Shown piece after piece: positions 13,779 to 39,987 of a DNA stretch of 64,000 bases. The position numbers and the translations under genes were made by a program. The notes beneath the pieces were generated by a model. That model did not search any database, was not told the DNA's origin, and worked only from the letters and a program-made list of their open reading frames with translations. This stretch comes from Methylobacterium nonmethylotrophicum (GTDB lineage: Bacteria; Pseudomonadota; Alphaproteobacteria; Rhizobiales; Beijerinckiaceae), in NCBI RefSeq assembly GCF_004745635.1, contig NZ_SRLB01000017.1, positions 1-64,000 of the forward strand, written 5' to 3'. Each line of letters begins with the position of its first letter. Position 1 is the first letter of the stretch.

Positions 13779-14798
13779 ATGACGGGTGAGCCGCAGGAGC
13801 GCGAGACGCAGAGCGCGACGGAGACAGGTGCCACCGAGATCCTGGCCGGGGGCCTCGCCCTCCGGCTCCACCCGCTGCCGCCGGCCGATCTCGACCTGGC
13901 GCGGACCGATGCGCGGACCCTCGCCCGCTACGGCCTGCCCGTCCCGCGGCCCGGGGACGGTCCGGCGGCGTCGGCCTTCCGCCGTGCGATCCTGGAACCG
14001 CCGCCGGACCGCCCGTTGCGCCTCGTGCCGGCTTTGCCGCGGGCGAGCGTCGCCCCGCGGTTGAGGGCCTTCACCCACGCCGCGGTGCCGGTGCGCCGGA
14101 GCGCCAACTGGGCGGGCGGCACGCTCACCGCCGGCCATGGCCGCAGCTTCGTCGGCGTGATGGCGCGCTGGCGCGTGCCGGCGGTCACGGGCGGGGGCCC
14201 GCCGGCCCGCGCCTCGACCTGGATCGGCCTCGACGGGCAGGGCTTCTACCGCAACGCCAGCCTGCCGCAGATCGGCACGCTGCAGACCTGGGACGGCCAG
14301 CGCGCCCGCTATGAAACCTGGGTCCAGTGGTGGGCCCGCGGCGAGGCCAATGCCCCCCTTCCCCTCGGCCTCGCCGTGGCGCCGGGCGACGCGGTGAGCG
14401 CGATCGTGACGCTCCTCGACCCCGCGACGGTGCGCTTCAACCTGAAGAACGAGACCACCGGCACGCTGCTCCAGCCCTTCGACGTCGCGGCGCCCGGGGG
14501 GCGGCATGTCTCCGGCGCGAGCGCGGAGTGGATCCTGGAACGCCCGAGCCCGCCGGGCGCCGATGGCTGGCACCCCTATCCCCTGGCAGCCCTGGCGCCG
14601 TTCCCGTTCACCGCCTGCCTCGCCCAGTCCCGGGCGCCGGGCGAGACGGCCCTGACCGAGCACGACCTCGCCCGGGCGAGCCTGGTCCGCATGATCGCCC
14701 TCGGGACCCGGCCGGCCCGCGCCCGCACGATCGCGTACCCGGCCCGGGTGAAGGGCGATCCACGGGCCCTGCGGATGAGCGTCGGGTCGCCGTTCTGA
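13779..14798 (+). CDS. G1 (eqolisin) glutamic peptidase-like protein
   Basis: 339 residues from ATG 13779 with a strong GGGGGGAGGG site. Residues ~108-255 follow the eqolisin pattern: SANWAGG (109-114), ASTWIGLDGQG (145-155), LPQIGTLQTW with the candidate catalytic Gln164, ARYETWVQWWA (176-186), GDAVSAIV, and SAEWILE with the candidate catalytic Glu250. Fungal G1 enzymes use exactly this Gln-Glu pair and act at acid pH. No clear signal peptide is seen; ~107 leading residues could be a propeptide. It lies directly behind the PAP2-like gene. The overlapping long frame from 10998 is a composition artefact. Confidence 0.75.
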   Translation: MTGEPQERETQSATETGATEILAGGLALRLHPLPPADLDLARTDARTLARYGLPVPRPGDGPAASAFRRAILEPPPDRPLRLVPALPRASVAPRLRAFTHAAVPVRRSANWAGGTLTAGHGRSFVGVMARWRVPAVTGGGPPARASTWIGLDGQGFYRNASLPQIGTLQTWDGQRARYETWVQWWARGEANAPLPLGLAVAPGDAVSAIVTLLDPATVRFNLKNETTGTLLQPFDVAAPGGRHVSGASAEWILERPSPPGADGWHPYPLAALAPFPFTACLAQSRAPGETALTEHDLARASLVRMIALGTRPARARTIAYPARVKGDPRALRMSVGSPF

Positions 14799-34909: not shown

Positions 34910-36973
34910 TCACTCCGCCGCCGCCGGCACGGCCCGCGGATCCGCCTCCATGGCGGTCCAGCTTTCGGTGCGGTAGGCCTTGAGGCAGGCCTGGACGCCG
35001 AAGGCGATGATCGCCACCACGACGCCGACGAAGAGCAGCGCCAGCACCGCGTCGATGCGGTCGTTGAAGACGATCTGGCTCATCTGATCGGCGGTCTTGG
35101 CCGGGGCCAGCACCTTGCCCTCGGCGAGCGCCGAGGAATAGCGCTCGGCATGCGCCAGGAATCCCACCCGCGGGTCGGCGGAAAAGACCTTCTGCAGGCC
35201 GGCCGTGAGGGTGCAGGCGACGAGCCAGAGCGTCGGCACGATGGTGACGAGGGCGTAGCGCTCCCGCTTCATCTTGAAGATCACCACGGTGCACAGCGTG
35301 AGCGCGATCGCCGCCAGCATCTGGTTCGAGATGCCGAAGAGCGGCCACAGGGTGTTCACGCCGCCCAGCGGATCGGTCACGCCCTGGTAGAGGAAGAAGC
35401 CCCAGAAGGCGACGCAGAGCGCGGTCGCGACGATGCTCGGACCCCAGGATGCCGTGTCCTTGAAGGCCGGCACCGCGACGCCGATCAGGTCCTGGAGCAT
35501 GAAGCGCCCGGCTCGGGTGCCCGCGTCGACGGCGGTGAGGATGAACAGCGCCTCGAACAGGATGGCGAAGTGGTACCAGAACGCCATCATCGCCTTGCCG
35601 CCGATGACGTTCGAGATGATGTGGGCCATGCCGACCGCCAGCGTCGGCGCACCGCCGGCCCGCGAGATCACGGTGTGCTCGCCGACATCGGAAGCGGTCT
35701 GCTTGATCGTGTCCGGCGAGATCGGGAAGCCCATGGCGGTGACCGCGGTCGAGGCGCTCTCCGCCGTGGTGCCGACGACGGCGCCGGGCGAGTTCATGGT
35801 GAAGTACACGCCCGGATCGATGACGCTGGCGGCGACGAGCGCCATCACGGCGACGAAGGATTCCATCAGCATGCCGCCATAGCCGATGAAGCGGGCATTG
35901 ACCTCGTTGTCGATCAGCTTCGGGGTCGTGCCGGACGAGATCAGGCTGTGGAAGCCCGACACCGCGCCGCACGCGATGGTGATGAACAGGAACGGGAACA
36001 GCGAGCCCGACCAGACCGGGCCGGTGCCGTCGACGAACTTCGTCACCGCCGGCATCTGCAGGTGCGGCGCCAGGACCAGGATGCCGAGGGCCAGGCCGAC
36101 GATCGTGCCGATCTTGAGGAAGGTCGAGAGGTAGTCGCGCGGGGCGAGCAGGAGCCAGACCGGCAGGATCGAGGCGACGAAGCCGTAACCGATCAGCATC
36201 CAGCACAGCTGGGTGCCGGTGAAGGTGAACATCGCCGAGAGCGTCGGGTCGTCGGCGACGTTCTGGCCGAAGATGATCGCGGCCATCAGCAGCACGAAGC
36301 CGAGGATCGAGACCTCGCCGATGCGGCCCGGGCGGATCCAGCGCGAGTAGACGCCCATCAGCAGCGCGATCGGGATCGTCGCCATCACCGTGAAGGTGCC
36401 CCAGGGGCTCTCGGCCAGCGCCTTGACGACGATCAGCGCCAGCACCGCCAGGATGATGACCATGATCAGGAAGGCGCCGAACAGCGCGACGATGCCGGGA
36501 ATCGTGCCGAGCTCGGCCCGGATCAGCTCGCCGAGCGAGCGGCCGTCGCGGCGCATCGAGACGAACAGCACCATGAAGTCCTGCACGGCGCCGGCCAGCA
36601 CGACGCCGGACAGGATCCACAGCAGGCCCGGCAGGTAGCCCATCTGCGCGGCCAGCACCGGGCCGACCAGCGGGCCGGCGCCCGCGATCGCCGCGAAGTG
36701 GTGGCCGAACAGGACGTACTTGTCGGTCGGGACGTAGTCGAGCCCGTCGTTGTGGCGCACCGCCGGGGTCTGGCGGTTCGGGTCGAGCCGCATGATGCGG
36801 TCGGCGATGAACAGCGAGTAGTAGCGGTAGGCGATCAGGTAGACCGAGACCGCCGCGACGACGATCCAGAGGGCGTTGACGGTCTCGCCGCGCTGCGTCG
36901 CCACGACGGCGAGGGCGGCGGCCCCGAGCGCCCCGACGAGGGCCCAGGGCCCGTGCTTCCGGACGGCAGTCAT
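34910..36973 (-). CDS. cstA: Carbon starvation protein CstA (pyruvate/peptide transporter)
   Basis: 687 residues with about 16-18 membrane helices. CstA family blocks: DYVPTDKYVLFGHHFAAIAGAGPLVGPVLAAQMGYLPG (~80-115), the DFMVLFVSMRRDGRSLGELI block, and ACGAVSGFHSLISSGTTPKLI. E. coli CstA takes up pyruvate and peptides during starvation. ATG 36973 has GGGAGGA upstream. It is the first gene of the operon with ybdD. A perfect TATAAT at 37095-37100 on this strand is the likely promoter element. Confidence 0.95.
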   Translation of the reverse strand: MTAVRKHGPWALVGALGAAALAVVATQRGETVNALWIVVAAVSVYLIAYRYYSLFIADRIMRLDPNRQTPAVRHNDGLDYVPTDKYVLFGHHFAAIAGAGPLVGPVLAAQMGYLPGLLWILSGVVLAGAVQDFMVLFVSMRRDGRSLGELIRAELGTIPGIVALFGAFLIMVIILAVLALIVVKALAESPWGTFTVMATIPIALLMGVYSRWIRPGRIGEVSILGFVLLMAAIIFGQNVADDPTLSAMFTFTGTQLCWMLIGYGFVASILPVWLLLAPRDYLSTFLKIGTIVGLALGILVLAPHLQMPAVTKFVDGTGPVWSGSLFPFLFITIACGAVSGFHSLISSGTTPKLIDNEVNARFIGYGGMLMESFVAVMALVAASVIDPGVYFTMNSPGAVVGTTAESASTAVTAMGFPISPDTIKQTASDVGEHTVISRAGGAPTLAVGMAHIISNVIGGKAMMAFWYHFAILFEALFILTAVDAGTRAGRFMLQDLIGVAVPAFKDTASWGPSIVATALCVAFWGFFLYQGVTDPLGGVNTLWPLFGISNQMLAAIALTLCTVVIFKMKRERYALVTIVPTLWLVACTLTAGLQKVFSADPRVGFLAHAERYSSALAEGKVLAPAKTADQMSQIVFNDRIDAVLALLFVGVVVAIIAFGVQACLKAYRTESWTAMEADPRAVPAAAE

Positions 36974-37416
36974 GAGGCATTCCTCCCGGCTACGCCGCCG
37001 GGCGGGACAATGCGTCGGCGGCTTCTTCGACTTTCGGGTAACGGAAACGCCCAGGGCTGCCAATGCGGCGGCGGGCCGGCGGTGATAGTGGAGAATTATA
37101 CTTTCGTCGCAGGACGGGATGACGGCTGGTTCAGGCGCGCAAGGCCGCGATCTGACGCGTACCGGTGGGTTCGGTGAACGGCCCAAGGACCGATCACGAT
37201 GCTCGCCTCCGCCATCCCCTCCGGGTTCGCCCTGCTCCTCGCACCATCGCCGTCCTGCTGGCGGTAAGCCGCTGAGGAGATGCGGAGCAGTGCTCGGGTG
37301 TCCGGGCGATCGTCGCGGAGCAGGGCACTGTGTCTCAGCGCACGGACCTGGAGCGTGCCGCGGGTAGCCTGTGCCGCATCCCGTTCACCGAACCTCCGGC
37401 CAAAGGAGCGGCACCC
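36974..37416. other. Intergenic region between cstA and the peptide cluster
   Basis: About 440 bases. It holds the cstA promoter (minus strand, 37095-37100) and the upstream part of the peptide cluster. A 22-codon frame at 37199-37267 and an in-frame GTG at 37330 lack ribosome sites. Base composition changes here from very GC-rich to mixed. Confidence 0.5.
37095..37100 (-). promoter_or_regulatory. -10 element (TATAAT) for cstA-ybdD
   Basis: Minus-strand TATAAT in an otherwise GC-rich region, about 120 bases before the cstA start. No good -35 element stands at 17 bases, so an activator may be needed, in line with starvation control. Confidence 0.5.
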
Positions 37417-37632
37417 GTGAAGTCTTTGATCAGCGCGACGAAGGACTCTGCTCCCTCGCAGGAGCCGGATATCGACATGGCTGTCCTCGATGCCTTGTCT
37501 GACGCCGATCTCGACGCCGTCGCCGGAGGGATCATCATCGTTGGCGGCATCACGAGCCGTGGTCTGACGGCCGGAGGCTTGCCGTCCGGGCTCTCGGCAT
37601 ACGCTTCTCTCGGTAGAGTTCTGAACGGGTAG
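37417..37632 (+). CDS. Putative double-glycine leader peptide precursor 1
   Basis: 71 residues from a GTG start with AAAGGAG eight bases upstream (an upstream in-frame GTG at 37330 has no ribosome site). The leader (~38 residues) is acidic and ends LSDADLDAVAGG, the classic double-glycine processing signal seen in class II bacteriocin and NHLP-type leaders. The 33-residue core starts IIIVGGITSRG and is rich in Gly, Leu, Ser, with no Cys and one Tyr. No cognate peptidase-transporter is in the window. It could also be a RiPP substrate with an enzyme elsewhere. A small hairpin follows at 37644-37660. Confidence 0.65.
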   Translation: MKSLISATKDSAPSQEPDIDMAVLDALSDADLDAVAGGIIIVGGITSRGLTAGGLPSGLSAYASLGRVLNG

Positions 37633-37643
37633 CCAAGCTCGCA

Positions 37644-37660
37644 TCCTCGCCGAGCGAGGA
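37644..37660 (+). terminator. Small hairpin after peptide gene 1
   Basis: TCCTCGC and GCGAGGA with a three-base loop, 12 bases behind the stop of peptide 1. Its strength is modest, so it may act as an attenuator or RNA-end stabiliser and not as a full stop. Confidence 0.4.
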
Positions 37661-37781
37661 CTGCAGCGAGGCGAAGTGTGCCGTTCGGCACCGCAGCGCG
37701 AACCGAAGCCGATCTATCAAAAAGACAGGACAGGTGCCGATCTGAAGCCTGTGGTTACGCTGACTGTGATGGAGAGGATCA

Positions 37782-37988
37782 ATGTCGGATGTCGTTCTCA
37801 AAATCGATCGCAGCAATTCTGCAGAACCTGGAATCACGTCACAGACCGAGGATCAGCGCCCGGACAGCGATCAACTAAGCCTGCAAGAACTCGATGAGAT
37901 CAATGGGGGCTTGCCTGCGCTCCTCATCGCAAGTCTTTTAACGGCGTATGGCGCGCGGGTCCTGCTTGGCGGCTCCCGGTATCTTTGA
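37782..37988 (+). CDS. Putative double-glycine leader peptide precursor 2
   Basis: 68 residues from ATG 37782 with GGAGAGG upstream. The leader (residues 1-43) begins MSDVVLKIDRSNSAE and ends LSLQELDEINGG, matching the LSxxELxxIxGG consensus of peptides matured by C39-type ABC transporters. The 25-residue core is hydrophobic (LPALLIASLLTAYGAR, then VLLGGSRYL). The gene and about 80 bases of its 5' region are duplicated as peptide gene 3, 344 bases further on. The leaders share 25 of 43 residues, the cores almost none. Confidence 0.72.
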   Translation: MSDVVLKIDRSNSAEPGITSQTEDQRPDSDQLSLQELDEINGGLPALLIASLLTAYGARVLLGGSRYL

Positions 37989-38125
37989 GGGCATAATCCC
38001 AATATCTTAAACGTCATGGAAGTCTGGCTGTCTAACACTGCAGATCGAACCAAAATCGATCTAGATTCGGTGAATTACAGCCACCGATCTGAGCCTTGTT
38101 GTTCCTGTCATCTTGGAGAAGACCC

Positions 38126-38329
38126 ATGTCGGATGTCGCTTTCGAAACCGATCGTCGCAACTCTGCCGAATTCAAGCTCGTGCCGCAGACCGAAGAGCAG
38201 CACGCGGACACAGGCGAGCTGAGCCTAGACGAACTTGATGAAGCCAACGGTGGTCTGCTGCTCCTCGTCGCTGCATTCGCGGGGGCCGTGGGCTACCGGA
38301 TGTACCTAGACTACCGCGGGTGGCGGTGA
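38126..38329 (+). CDS. Putative double-glycine leader peptide precursor 3
   Basis: 67 residues from ATG 38126 with TTGGAGAA upstream. It is a paralogue of peptide 2: the leader begins MSDVAFETDRRNSAE and ends LSLDELDEANGG at residue 43. The 24-residue core (LLLLVAAFAGAVGYRMYLDY, then RGWR) is hydrophobic first and basic-aromatic at its end, which suits a membrane-active peptide. No Cys. It is followed by a GNRA-loop terminator at 38361-38386, so it is the last gene of the cluster. Confidence 0.72.
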   Translation: MSDVAFETDRRNSAEFKLVPQTEEQHADTGELSLDELDEANGGLLLLVAAFAGAVGYRMYLDYRGWR

Positions 38330-38360
38330 TCGCAGGCCTAAGCAGATCTCGCATAGGTGG

Positions 38361-38386
38361 CCGCCGGTTTCGCAAGAAACCTGCGG
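38361..38386 (+). terminator. Terminator with GCAA tetraloop after the peptide cluster
   Basis: An 11-bp stem with one mismatch (38361-38371 and 38376-38386) closed by a GCAA tetraloop, followed by CAAAACAAAAAC. It lies 32 bases after the stop of peptide 3 and should end the peptide transcript. Confidence 0.7.
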
Positions 38387-38494
38387 CAAAACAAAAACCT
38401 GATCTGACGAAGCGAGTGTCCGCTCTTCATTGGCCAGACCATAGGAATGCTTGCATCGTGGCGCTCATGCTGGCGGGGCGGGGACGCATAGTGC

Positions 38495-38598
38495 CGCCTG
38501 AAGGACATCCGTAACATCGCCACCCGCTATGACAAGCTCGCCCGTGACACGTCTCGGCTATCACACTGGTCGCCGTCATCGCGTTCTGGTGCCGACGA
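38495..38598 (+). mobile_element. IS5-like transposase C-terminal remnant (frameshifted)
   Basis: Read from 38495, the sequence encodes RLKDIRNIATRYDKLARD. After a one-base frame change it continues VSAITLVAVIAFWC. That is the conserved C-terminal end of IS5-family transposases (RLKDWRRIATRYDKLA, AFWC). No start, no active-site part and no terminal repeats remain, so it is a relic. It lies behind the peptide cluster and marks past insertion at this site. Confidence 0.75.
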
Positions 38599-38658
38599 GC
38601 CTCGACCTTGACAGTCGTCGACTTCCGTTTGTGCACACTGCTCGCAGAGGCATGCTCA

Positions 38659-38721
38659 TCCCACGCGCGACCGCATCCTGAGGCCGCTCCACGGCACCTC
38701 AGGACGCGGTCACGCGTGGGA
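38659..38721. repeat. Long inverted repeat (25-bp arms)
   Basis: Arms 38659-38683 and 38697-38721 match at 23 of 25 positions; the inner ends are ATCCTGAGG and CCTCAGGAC, the outer ends TCCCACGCG and CGCGTGGGA. The loop is 13 bases. It resembles the CATCCTGAGG elements at 14938 and 29013. It could end the minus-strand response-regulator transcript (stop at 38772). Confidence 0.75.
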
Positions 38722-38771
38722 CAAACTCCGTGGATAGACTTGGCGGCCGCTCGCGCGATCCGCGGCCCTGC

Positions 38772-39437
38772 TCAGTTCGACGGCAAGCCCGCCAGGATGT
38801 GGTCGTAATCGAGGTTCGCGGTCTCGATCACGATCTGGGTCCGGCTGATGACCCCGAGCTTGCGCAGGATCTCCGAGACGTGGGCCTTGACGGTGGAATC
38901 GCCGACGCCGAGCTCGTGGGCGATCTGCTTGTTGAGCTTGCCCTGGCGGATCATCAGCAGCACCCGGACCTGCTGCGGGGTCAGCTCGGCGATGCGCTGG
39001 GCGATCGGCGCCTTGCCGGTCTTGCGGCCGGGGGCCTCGGCCGGGCCGGAGAGGCCCTCCGGCACGAAGACCGCGCCGTTGAGCACGTCGGTGATGGCAC
39101 GGATCAGGACCGGCTTGCCGGCGGCCTTCGGCACGAAGCCGGCGGCGCCATGGGCGAGCGCCTCGCGCACGATGCGCGGATCGTCGAGGCCCGACACGAC
39201 CAGCACCGGGATGCGCGGGAAGCGGGTGCGGATGGCGATCAGCCCATCGAAGCCGTTGACGCCCTGCATGGTGAGGTCGAGGAGCGTCAGGTCGATCGAG
39301 CGGGCCCGGGACAGGGCCGCGCAGGCGCTCTCGATGCCGTCCGCCTCCTCGACCTCGGCGGCCGGGAAGGCGAGGCGGACCGCGCTGCTCAGGGCATCGC
39401 GAAACAGCGGGTGATCGTCGACGATGATCAGGTGCAT
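38772..39437 (-). CDS. NarL/FixJ-type response regulator
   Basis: 221 residues from ATG 39437 (GGAGGGG upstream). Receiver domain ~1-120: LIIVDDHPLFRDAL with the acidic pair, phospho-acceptor Asp in LTLLDLTMQG, and the Lys in GFVPKAAGK. The C-terminal LuxR-type helix-turn-helix (~150-215) reads ELTPQQVRVLLMIRQGKLNKQIAHELGVGDSTVKAHVSEIL. It is divergent from the FIST and histidine kinase genes, so it is probably their output regulator. Confidence 0.92.
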   Translation of the reverse strand: MHLIIVDDHPLFRDALSSAVRLAFPAAEVEEADGIESACAALSRARSIDLTLLDLTMQGVNGFDGLIAIRTRFPRIPVLVVSGLDDPRIVREALAHGAAGFVPKAAGKPVLIRAITDVLNGAVFVPEGLSGPAEAPGRKTGKAPIAQRIAELTPQQVRVLLMIRQGKLNKQIAHELGVGDSTVKAHVSEILRKLGVISRTQIVIETANLDYDHILAGLPSN

Positions 39438-39987
39438 GTCCGACCCCTCCGCGACGGGCGTCCCGTCCGGCCGCGGAAGAGACACCTCAGGGGCCGGACC
39501 GGTCAATCCCACCATCGCTGCGGATCATCCTCTCACCAGGGCGCCGACCCGTGGCGCACGCAAACGCAGATCGGGCACAGCAACGCCGCCGCACCCAGAA
39601 GTCGACGGAAGAGTTATCACGCGGCCGCGCCAACAGCCACCGTGCTTTGGTACGGAGCCGCGGCGAAGATCCCGCCGGCTGCACCTTGGTCCAATGGTGG
39701 CGTGCGCCGAACCGGTCCTATCGTCACCCGACCTCGGAGGCGGATCAAGGACATCGTCACCGCGGAACGGGCGGGAGCGGAGCGTGGCATCCGGTGGCCG
39801 CGTCGCGTGGGGCGGCGCGGCCACCGATCGCGGGGGCGATCGCCCGTCCGCTTCCCAGCGCAGGCGCGGCCGCCGCACCGGCCGCGCCTGCGCACCCGCA
39901 GGTCCGTCCGCTGCCGTTGCCTTGCGCAACCCCTCGTCGCATAATGCGGCAACGCCGCGGCGGAGCCGGCGAGACGGGAGGGAGTCC
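39438..39987. other. Divergent regulatory region between response regulator and FIST gene
   Basis: 550 bases without a convincing gene. It contains the hairpin at 39858-39893 and the A/T-richer stretch GAAGAGTTATCACGCGG near 39607-39623. The codon bias of the frame in phase with the FIST gene is not protein-like here. Confidence 0.45.
39858..39893 (+). promoter_or_regulatory. Strong hairpin in the 5' leader of the FIST gene
   Basis: A perfect 15-bp stem (39858-39872 and 39879-39893, core AGGCGCGGCCG) with a six-base loop, about 95 bases upstream of the FIST start. It may be a terminator of an upstream short transcript or an attenuator in the leader. Confidence 0.45.

Follow-up and report, generated by a model that had tools for sequence, protein, structure and literature searches.

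Three double-glycine leader peptide genes in a small, apparently acquired insert of Methylobacterium nonmethylotrophicum, probably exported in trans

Background

The described systems closest to the genes reported here are the NHLP and N11P precursors. The available text of Haft 2010 (PMC2887384) describes for them exporter families, a leader box called motif 2, hypervariable cores and precursors which may lie at a distance from the genes for their modification and export; in Methylobacterium sp. 4-46, according to the same text, the NHLP is not near its cyclodehydratase gene.

Four other systems invite comparison, each as described in the accessible part of its source. Class II microcins of the MccV type have small GG-leader precursors, a C39 ABC exporter and a membrane fusion protein, and typically an immunity gene at the locus (PMC13174018). 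The Cdz small proteins of the alphaproteobacterium Caulobacter leave the cell by type I export and are encoded in a single cluster with a three-TM immunity protein (PMC5380434). In Synechococcus elongatus, the four small GG-motif proteins EbfG1-4, whose secretion needs a C39 peptidase transporter, enable biofilm (PMC4997328). Finally, a small acquired island of Neisseria gonorrhoeae encodes three cationic GG-motif peptides, the Naps, which promote autolysis in Neisseria, together with a C39 peptidase, an export channel and a regulator of its own (PMC11798529).

We describe here three short genes, P1, P2 and P3, found in the window, that is, in the whole stretch of 64,000 nucleotides which was analysed (contig C12 of a genome of 7.83 Mb). 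A sequence-only reading of the window had proposed them as an orphan cluster of double-glycine leader peptides forming an undescribed antimicrobial or signalling system, an interpretation which is partly supported by the analysis below.

Results

Layout of the locus

The features of the locus are collected in Table 1. As that reading had claimed, the three frames are where it placed them, each with GGAG 7-8 nt upstream of its start, the leaders end in AVAGG, EINGG and EANGG, and the cores have the lengths claimed and contain no cysteine. Its statement that the region is A/T-richer than its flanks is borne out around P2 and P3, where the GC content is lowest (0.53-0.57, rising to 0.60-0.61 directly to their right), but not clearly for the P1 part (0.63-0.67, against 0.66-0.76 in the flanks). 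The GNRA-loop terminator that it saw is present as a hairpin with a GCAA loop, but the sequence following it is A-rich and not a U-tract, and a terminator scan of the + strand found none. A sigma-70 promoter scan was equally negative, as was a search of Rfam over 36900-38800. The announced IS relic belongs to the IS5 family. A perfect 14-nt inverted repeat (37168-37181 / 37381-37394) brackets the region upstream of P1.

Table 1. Features of the P1-P3 locus (positions in the window) and of LNPQPLPP-type precursors (positions in the locus named)
Feature	Sequence	Position	Strand	Remarks
cstA, carbon starvation protein, left flank	window	34910..36973	-	PF02554; outside the system
Insertion between cstA and response-regulator gene	window	37140..38770		approximate extent; exact ends not resolved
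P1 upstream region	window	37329..37416	+	GGAG 37405-37408; 72% DNA identity to upstream region of G030 homologue (over 37329-37409)
P1	window	37417..37632	+	GTG start, 71 aa; leader 38 aa (37417-37530) ending ALSDADLDAVAGG; core 33 aa (37531-37629)
P2 upstream region	window	37678..37781	+	GGAG 37771-37774; 78% DNA identity to C47 copy over 37678-37913
P2	window	37782..37988	+	68 aa; leader 43 aa (37782-37910) ending QLSLQELDEINGG; core 25 aa (37911-37985)
P3 upstream region	window	38036..38125	+	GGAG 38115-38118; kept with P2 and C47 copy (74% DNA, 38036-38264)
P3	window	38126..38329	+	67 aa; leader 43 aa (38126-38254) ending ELSLDELDEANGG; core 24 aa (38255-38326)
GNRA hairpin, GCAA loop	window	38360..38387	+	no U-tract on + strand
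IS5-family (ISMpo7-like) transposase relic	window	38469..38607	+	inside the insert
LuxR-type response regulator, right flank	window	38772..39515	-	PF00072 + PF00196; outside the system
LNPQPLPP-type precursor	L119	597-797
LNPQPLPP-type precursor	L120	573-845	-
LNPQPLPP-type precursor	L121	650-832	-
LNPQPLPP-type precursor	L012	12001-12144
LNPQPLPP-type precursor	L135	4957-5136	-
LNPQPLPP-type precursor	L138	4159-4422	-
LNPQPLPP-type precursor	L133
LNPQPLPP-type precursor	L124
LNPQPLPP-type precursor	L125

P1-P3 as genes

Comparison with related sequences confirms P1-P3 as real genes for predicted double-glycine-leader precursors. Chance ORFs are ruled out: the combination of such a leader with a short ORF is found in the window in P1, P2, P3 and one match judged false, and not once in 40 random 64-kb sequences generated with the composition of the window (order-2 Markov). 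From its own genome, a search with P3 returned P2 and, at 62% identity, a copy on contig C47. In the other genomes of the genus (111 in all), it matched one copy in G109, two in G106 and nothing else; scanning the G106 contig for the motif and aligning the results gives four members of the P2/P3 family there, in tandem. The family is present in 3 of the 111 genomes and the P1 type in 2, our genome being counted both times. The homologue of P1 is in G030 (E 6e-12) and keeps the block LSDxDLDAxxGGIIxVGGITSRGLT. Of the 26 rows of the P1 search, we excluded 24 as homologues, all with an E of 3e-4 or higher; the best of these is in G016, a genome without TIGR03796, and the ORFs around two weak matches (L049, L050) include no P1-like peptide. 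In related genomes, the frames are kept as a family but not at the cstA locus (see below).

Purifying selection acts on the leaders, as measured across paralogues and species. The leader dN/dS is 0.11-0.35 over the 6 pairs compared (15 are possible among the 6 sequences; two of the four G106 copies were left out), with 0.17 for P2 and 0.11 for P3 against the C47 copy. The dN/dS of the core exceeds that of the leader in all six pairs, its values of 0.42-2.22 coming from short ungapped alignments which are partly saturated. Between P3 and the C47 copy, the contrast of leader and core has p=2e-6 for nonsynonymous and p=1.0 for synonymous changes, calculated on rounded counts. Cores of the P2/P3 type are variable, diverging even between tandem copies of one genome. 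The core of P1 is conserved in part: the block common to P1 and G030 has a dN/dS of 0.22 over 26 codons, and the remainder of that core 0.93.

The sequence in front of the genes is also kept. In the P2/P3 family, GGAG precedes each of the eight members aligned, which include P2 and P3. Conserved 5' DNA reaches back about 100 nt from P2 and 90 nt from P3 in the comparison with the C47 copy, and about 80 nt from P1 in that with G030, so that regulation may be common within each group.

Pfam and NCBIfam give no family above cut-off for P1-P3, a plasmid collection contains no relatives of P3 or P1, and viral contigs contain none of P1, P2 or P3. A search of GTDB contigs with P3 confirmed no relative, in a collection which may omit records close to our genome. 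Our genome aside, profile A1 gave only weak matches in a sample of 397 genomes of the family; it contains sequences of G106 and G109, which we take not to be among the 397 since both are absent from the matches. Eight of these weak matches (L020, L021, L022, L025, L036, L033, L035, L040) were rejected from the P2/P3 family as other leader-type peptides or chance. The order-wide P1 search (397 genomes) had, besides our genome, one weak match, dismissed since its frame is 721 aa long. Three of the loci rejected above (L036, L022, L021) lie in genomes of the genus (G064, G045 and G007) that have no TIGR03796 match at E<=1e-150; their GG-leader peptides are of a separate class, in which glycine-rich stretches such as LSLGLGLELDLS occur.

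An insertion beside cstA

The insertion is of about 1.5 kb: the window has about 1.6 kb where the empty sites of relatives have a gap of about 65-455 bp. With the start of cstA as a DNA query, 110 of the 111 genomes were matched; among the 29 loci listed of the 109 other genomes matched, the site is empty in each of the 18 with both flanks aligned, the 11 loci without an aligned right flank being left out of the comparison. Genus-wide searches found no P1-P3 homologue at the cstA site of relatives, G106, G109 and G030 included. The insertion as such is shown by these alignments, and P1-P3 would constitute a small acquired cassette without an exporter of its own or a recognised immunity gene. 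The response regulator beside the insert is also present in relatives which lack the insert, and hence it is not a dedicated receptor gene.

Contig C47, the bearer of the closest copy, looks plasmid-like: it carries two ParA-type proteins, a phage integrase and a match to replication protein C below cut-off. It holds three leader-type precursors (L249, L014). Near the right end of the insert, a 25-nt imperfect palindrome resembling a REP element lies within 38659-38721, parts of which match the empty site of L222 and L227.

A candidate exporter on another contig

The sequence-only reading had seen no C39 exporter in the window and had placed maturation in trans. Both statements agree with what the whole genome contains: its five C39 matches are all on other contigs, and contig C7 carries an intact NHLM set, by which the "orphan" problem is largely solved. 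The C7 set consists of an HlyD (TIGR03794, 296 bits), an ABC1 with peptidase (TIGR03796, 1034 bits) and an ABC2 (TIGR03797, 846 bits), all above their cut-offs; in the alignment, its ABC1 has the peptidase Cys, His and Asp at the positions which we take to be catalytic in C39. Contig C37 has a weaker NHLM-like ABC1 (785 bits, for a cut-off of 853.3) accompanied by an HlyD above cut-off, and another C39 match, at C37:23990, which is assignable to no clear gene. For the C39-like matches on C40 and C22, the best score is as type I HlyB-like, and the Cys is lacking at the aligned position.

In G106, the four P2/P3 homologues and one LNPQPLPP peptide lie directly upstream of genes for HlyD (TIGR03794, 302 bits), C39-ABC1 (TIGR03796, 1012 bits) and ABC2 (TIGR03797, 820 bits); the ABC1 is 84% identical, and the HlyD 82%, to its C7 counterpart. 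Homologues in G109, in G030 and in our genome do not adjoin an exporter, so it is in G106 alone that the family is linked to one. A clear P1-P3 homologue is present in four genomes, ours included, and all of them are among the 19 of 111 which have TIGR03796 (E<=1e-150), a co-occurrence with a hypergeometric probability of 6e-4 for thresholds set afterwards and ancestry uncorrected. Taken together, these comparisons make it very probable that P1-P3 are exported through an NHLM-type C39 exporter. By homology, the C7 set would be the most likely one, and the second, NHLM-like set on C37 could take its place. The LNPQPLPP precursor beside the C7 exporter (L016, about 14553-14710) appears frame-disrupted in the assembly, and so C7 could be decaying. 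Just upstream of the precursor-exporter cluster of G106 are genes for a sigma-70-type factor with regions 2 and 4 and for a zf-HC2 zinc-finger protein (L012, 7852-9148, - strand).

The leader box and a wider set of precursors

The PCAT1 leader consensus, in the available text of PMC6959990, consists of L(-12), E(-8), L(-7) and GG. P1, P2 and P3 have both leucines, with E or D at position -8. We made a leader profile from 16 hand-picked leaders, P1-P3 being included by construction; the two leucines are in all 16, which were picked by such a motif. On our genome the profile has 13 matches at E<=0.3, two of which we set aside (one on C37, dismissed as part of a 2392-aa frame, and one on C7 without an intact start). 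The 11 intact short precursors left are spread over 7 contigs: three on C12, three on C47 and one each on C27, C15, C59, C86 and C81. The 11 do not include two additional candidates, one more on C86 and one on the minus strand of C81. The classic bacteriocin leader model TIGR01847 has 3 matches in the genome, none above cut-off.

The same scattering is seen in G049, where all nine profile matches are short ORFs with the leader box, situated between 0.83 and 7.38 Mb of a 7.5-Mb contig; the sole TIGR03796 match is at 5.80 Mb and none of the nine is within 0.5 Mb of it. A further weak precursor candidate is found about 8 kb upstream of this gene. Leader matches at E<=0.3 occur in 66 of the 111 genomes, some of them by chance in long frames; many of these genomes have no TIGR03796, which shows that the leader box is not specific to the NHLM exporter. 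Around 80 exporter loci of other taxa (best 70 rows), we saw long N11P-like leaders, and short ones in Bradyrhizobium, the box being present by construction. We put it at somewhat below even chances that one NHLM exporter serves scattered, mobile, unmodified short-leader peptides, mostly without cysteine, and that mini-cassettes devoid of exporter, enzyme and immunity gene plug into it by the leader box alone.

Short precursors whose core starts with LNPQPLPP right after Gly-Gly recur in our genome and in several others, some beside NHLM exporters (Table 1); the literature text searched does not contain NPQPLPP. In Bradyrhizobium hipponense, a precursor near an NHLM exporter (L156, 14853-15077) has GGIILVSG (compare GGIIIVGG of P1) and, farther along, LNPQPLPP.

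Comparison with the described systems

Haft 2010 and our genomes have the exporter families TIGR03794, TIGR03796 and TIGR03797 in common, and motif 2 of the NHLP, given as ELSDEQLDAVAGG in the available text (PMC2887384), is nearly identical to the leader end of P1. All three peptides have a motif 2 ending in Gly-Gly and then a variable core, that of P1 being partly conserved. Precursors possibly far from enzymes and exporter and hypervariable cores are further common traits. Unlike NHLP and N11P, for which the same text gives an average of about 70-83, P1-P3 reach their Gly-Gly at residue 38-43; their cores lack cysteine and no modifying enzyme is recognised nearby. The NCBIfam models of the long leaders, TIGR03793 and TIGR03798, do not match P1-P3 at E<=1, and hence we do not count them as members of NHLP or N11P. 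By analogy, they look as if they function in the NHLP/N11P manner.

P1-P3 resemble class II microcins in their small GG-leader precursors (67-71 aa) and in having a C39 ABC exporter and a membrane fusion protein in the genome, and differ from the description of PMC13174018 in that their exporter is not adjacent and no immunity gene is recognised in the insert. They differ from Cdz, likewise small alphaproteobacterial proteins with type I export (PMC5380434, as far as available), in lying apart from the exporter: the window has no C39 exporter, and no TM immunity ORF is found beside P1-P3. The likeness to EbfG1-4 is one of GG motif and, as proposed for P1-P3, of C39-dependent secretion, and the EbfG role is biofilm (PMC4997328). 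From the Nap island, as described in the accessible text of PMC11798529, the P1-P3 insert differs in having no recognised peptidase, channel or regulator. Two further classes were rejected: the lanthipeptides, as P1-P3 cores have no Cys and the genome no LanC-like gene, and the class IIb bacteriocins of the lactobin A/cerein 7B type (TIGR03949), for which P2 scores 13.5 bits against a cut-off of 21.5 and P1 and P3 do not match.

To call the system undescribed was an overstatement, because leader box, exporter type and exporter-remote precursors are already in PMC2887384. In the literature accessible to our search, subscription literature being mostly outside its scope, we found no description of short-leader or scattered NHLM substrates or of Methylobacterium GG-leader peptides, and thus no published account of a short-leader, cysteine-free, scattered class of precursors.

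Discussion

Proposed working and alternatives

The explanation which we judge best as a whole, and probably correct, is that P1-P3 are secreted small peptides with an exporter in trans and a membrane-directed use. They would be one of several scattered precursor loci with a common leader type. Docking would be by the leader box, on the C39 peptidase of a remotely encoded NHLM-type exporter (HlyD, ABC1 and ABC2 of C7). Cleavage behind Gly-Gly would then remove the leader, and the cores (33, 25 and 24 residues) would leave via ABC1/ABC2/HlyD and an outer-membrane channel. The cores may then act as unmodified, hydrophobic helices with a charge of +2 which insert into the membranes of competing bacteria. 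The comparisons show the genes, their leaders and the selection on them, the exporter genes, the linkage in G106 and the insertion; the choice of exporter, cleavage, secretion and activity are what we infer.

The cores themselves accord with such a use. P1-P3 have a net charge of +2, as do nine of the ten cores listed, the remaining one having +3, and most cores of the P2/P3 type combine a hydrophobic sequence with a tail that is cationic and aromatic; a G106 core that contains Cys is less hydrophobic. An AlphaFold model of P2, of low confidence (mean pLDDT 59), places a short helix in front of GG and runs a single one through the core. Antagonism is suggested by the variability of the cores, by the divergent copies in tandem and by mobility. 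That no immunity gene is recognised argues against it, or else for a self-directed role. Bacteriocin loci usually have an immunity gene, which need not be hydrophobic. Among the ORFs of at least 35 aa wholly within 36990-38770, only P2 and P3 pass our hydrophobicity threshold; three others pass it in the G106 cluster (36, 74 and 256 aa) and two near the G109 copy (46 and 163 aa). Membrane-directed antagonism between bacteria is a function that we put forward with reserve, at slightly less than even chances. P1, with its partly conserved core, probably has another and more constrained target.

Self-directed or signalling peptides, using the same exporter and acting on siblings as EbfG1-4 or Naps do, are an alternative favoured by the lack of a recognised immunity gene in the insert and by the partly conserved P1 core. 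GG-motif peptides without an antimicrobial role are known, and the Naps likewise come from a small acquired island (PMC4997328 and PMC11798529, in their available text). The cores of the P2/P3 type, however, differ between tandem copies in one genome, which is unusual for one common signal, and the adjoining response regulator is no help to a signalling role, being found in insert-free relatives. We consider this alternative unlikely, if a serious one.

A good deal less probable still is that P1-P3 are RiPP precursors, modified before export by enzymes encoded elsewhere in the genome, such as a YcaO. The available text of PMC2887384 has NHLM exporters often handling modified peptides, and our search for RiPP enzymes, which covered the YcaO and LanC-like classes, did find a single YcaO gene in the genome (L251, G000:C6:61837-62898). 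This gene is unlinked to P1-P3, and for these two classes the claim that the window has no RiPP enzyme is upheld. The cysteine-free cores argue against modification, as do the negative LanC-like search, leaders which match neither the NHLP nor the N11P model and the surroundings of the G106 precursors, where the export genes and the sigma/zinc-finger pair are the only neighbours identified.

That P1-P3 are decaying relics, a recently inserted fragment without function in this strain, is about as improbable: the insert bears an IS5 relic and is itself missing from relatives, and the precursor on the side of the C7 exporter is apparently disrupted, but the three frames are intact with their ribosome sites, the genome has 11 intact precursors, and selection keeps the leaders, though this was measured across paralogues and species and not within the species.

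Meaning for Methylobacterium

We return to secreted peptides with an exporter in trans as the reading we prefer. The sequence-only reading had named as fatal to itself a genome without a C39 or NHLM-type exporter in which, moreover, the frames were not conserved among relatives; what we found is the C7 set and frames kept as a family. Searches for bacteriocins and RiPPs usually start beside an exporter or a modifying enzyme. As P1-P3 are neither exporter-adjacent nor long-leader and have no Pfam or NCBIfam family above cut-off, peptides of this kind would easily escape notice in Methylobacterium and related bacteria. They can be listed directly by means of the leader box, and the exporter would be one or two genes common to all.
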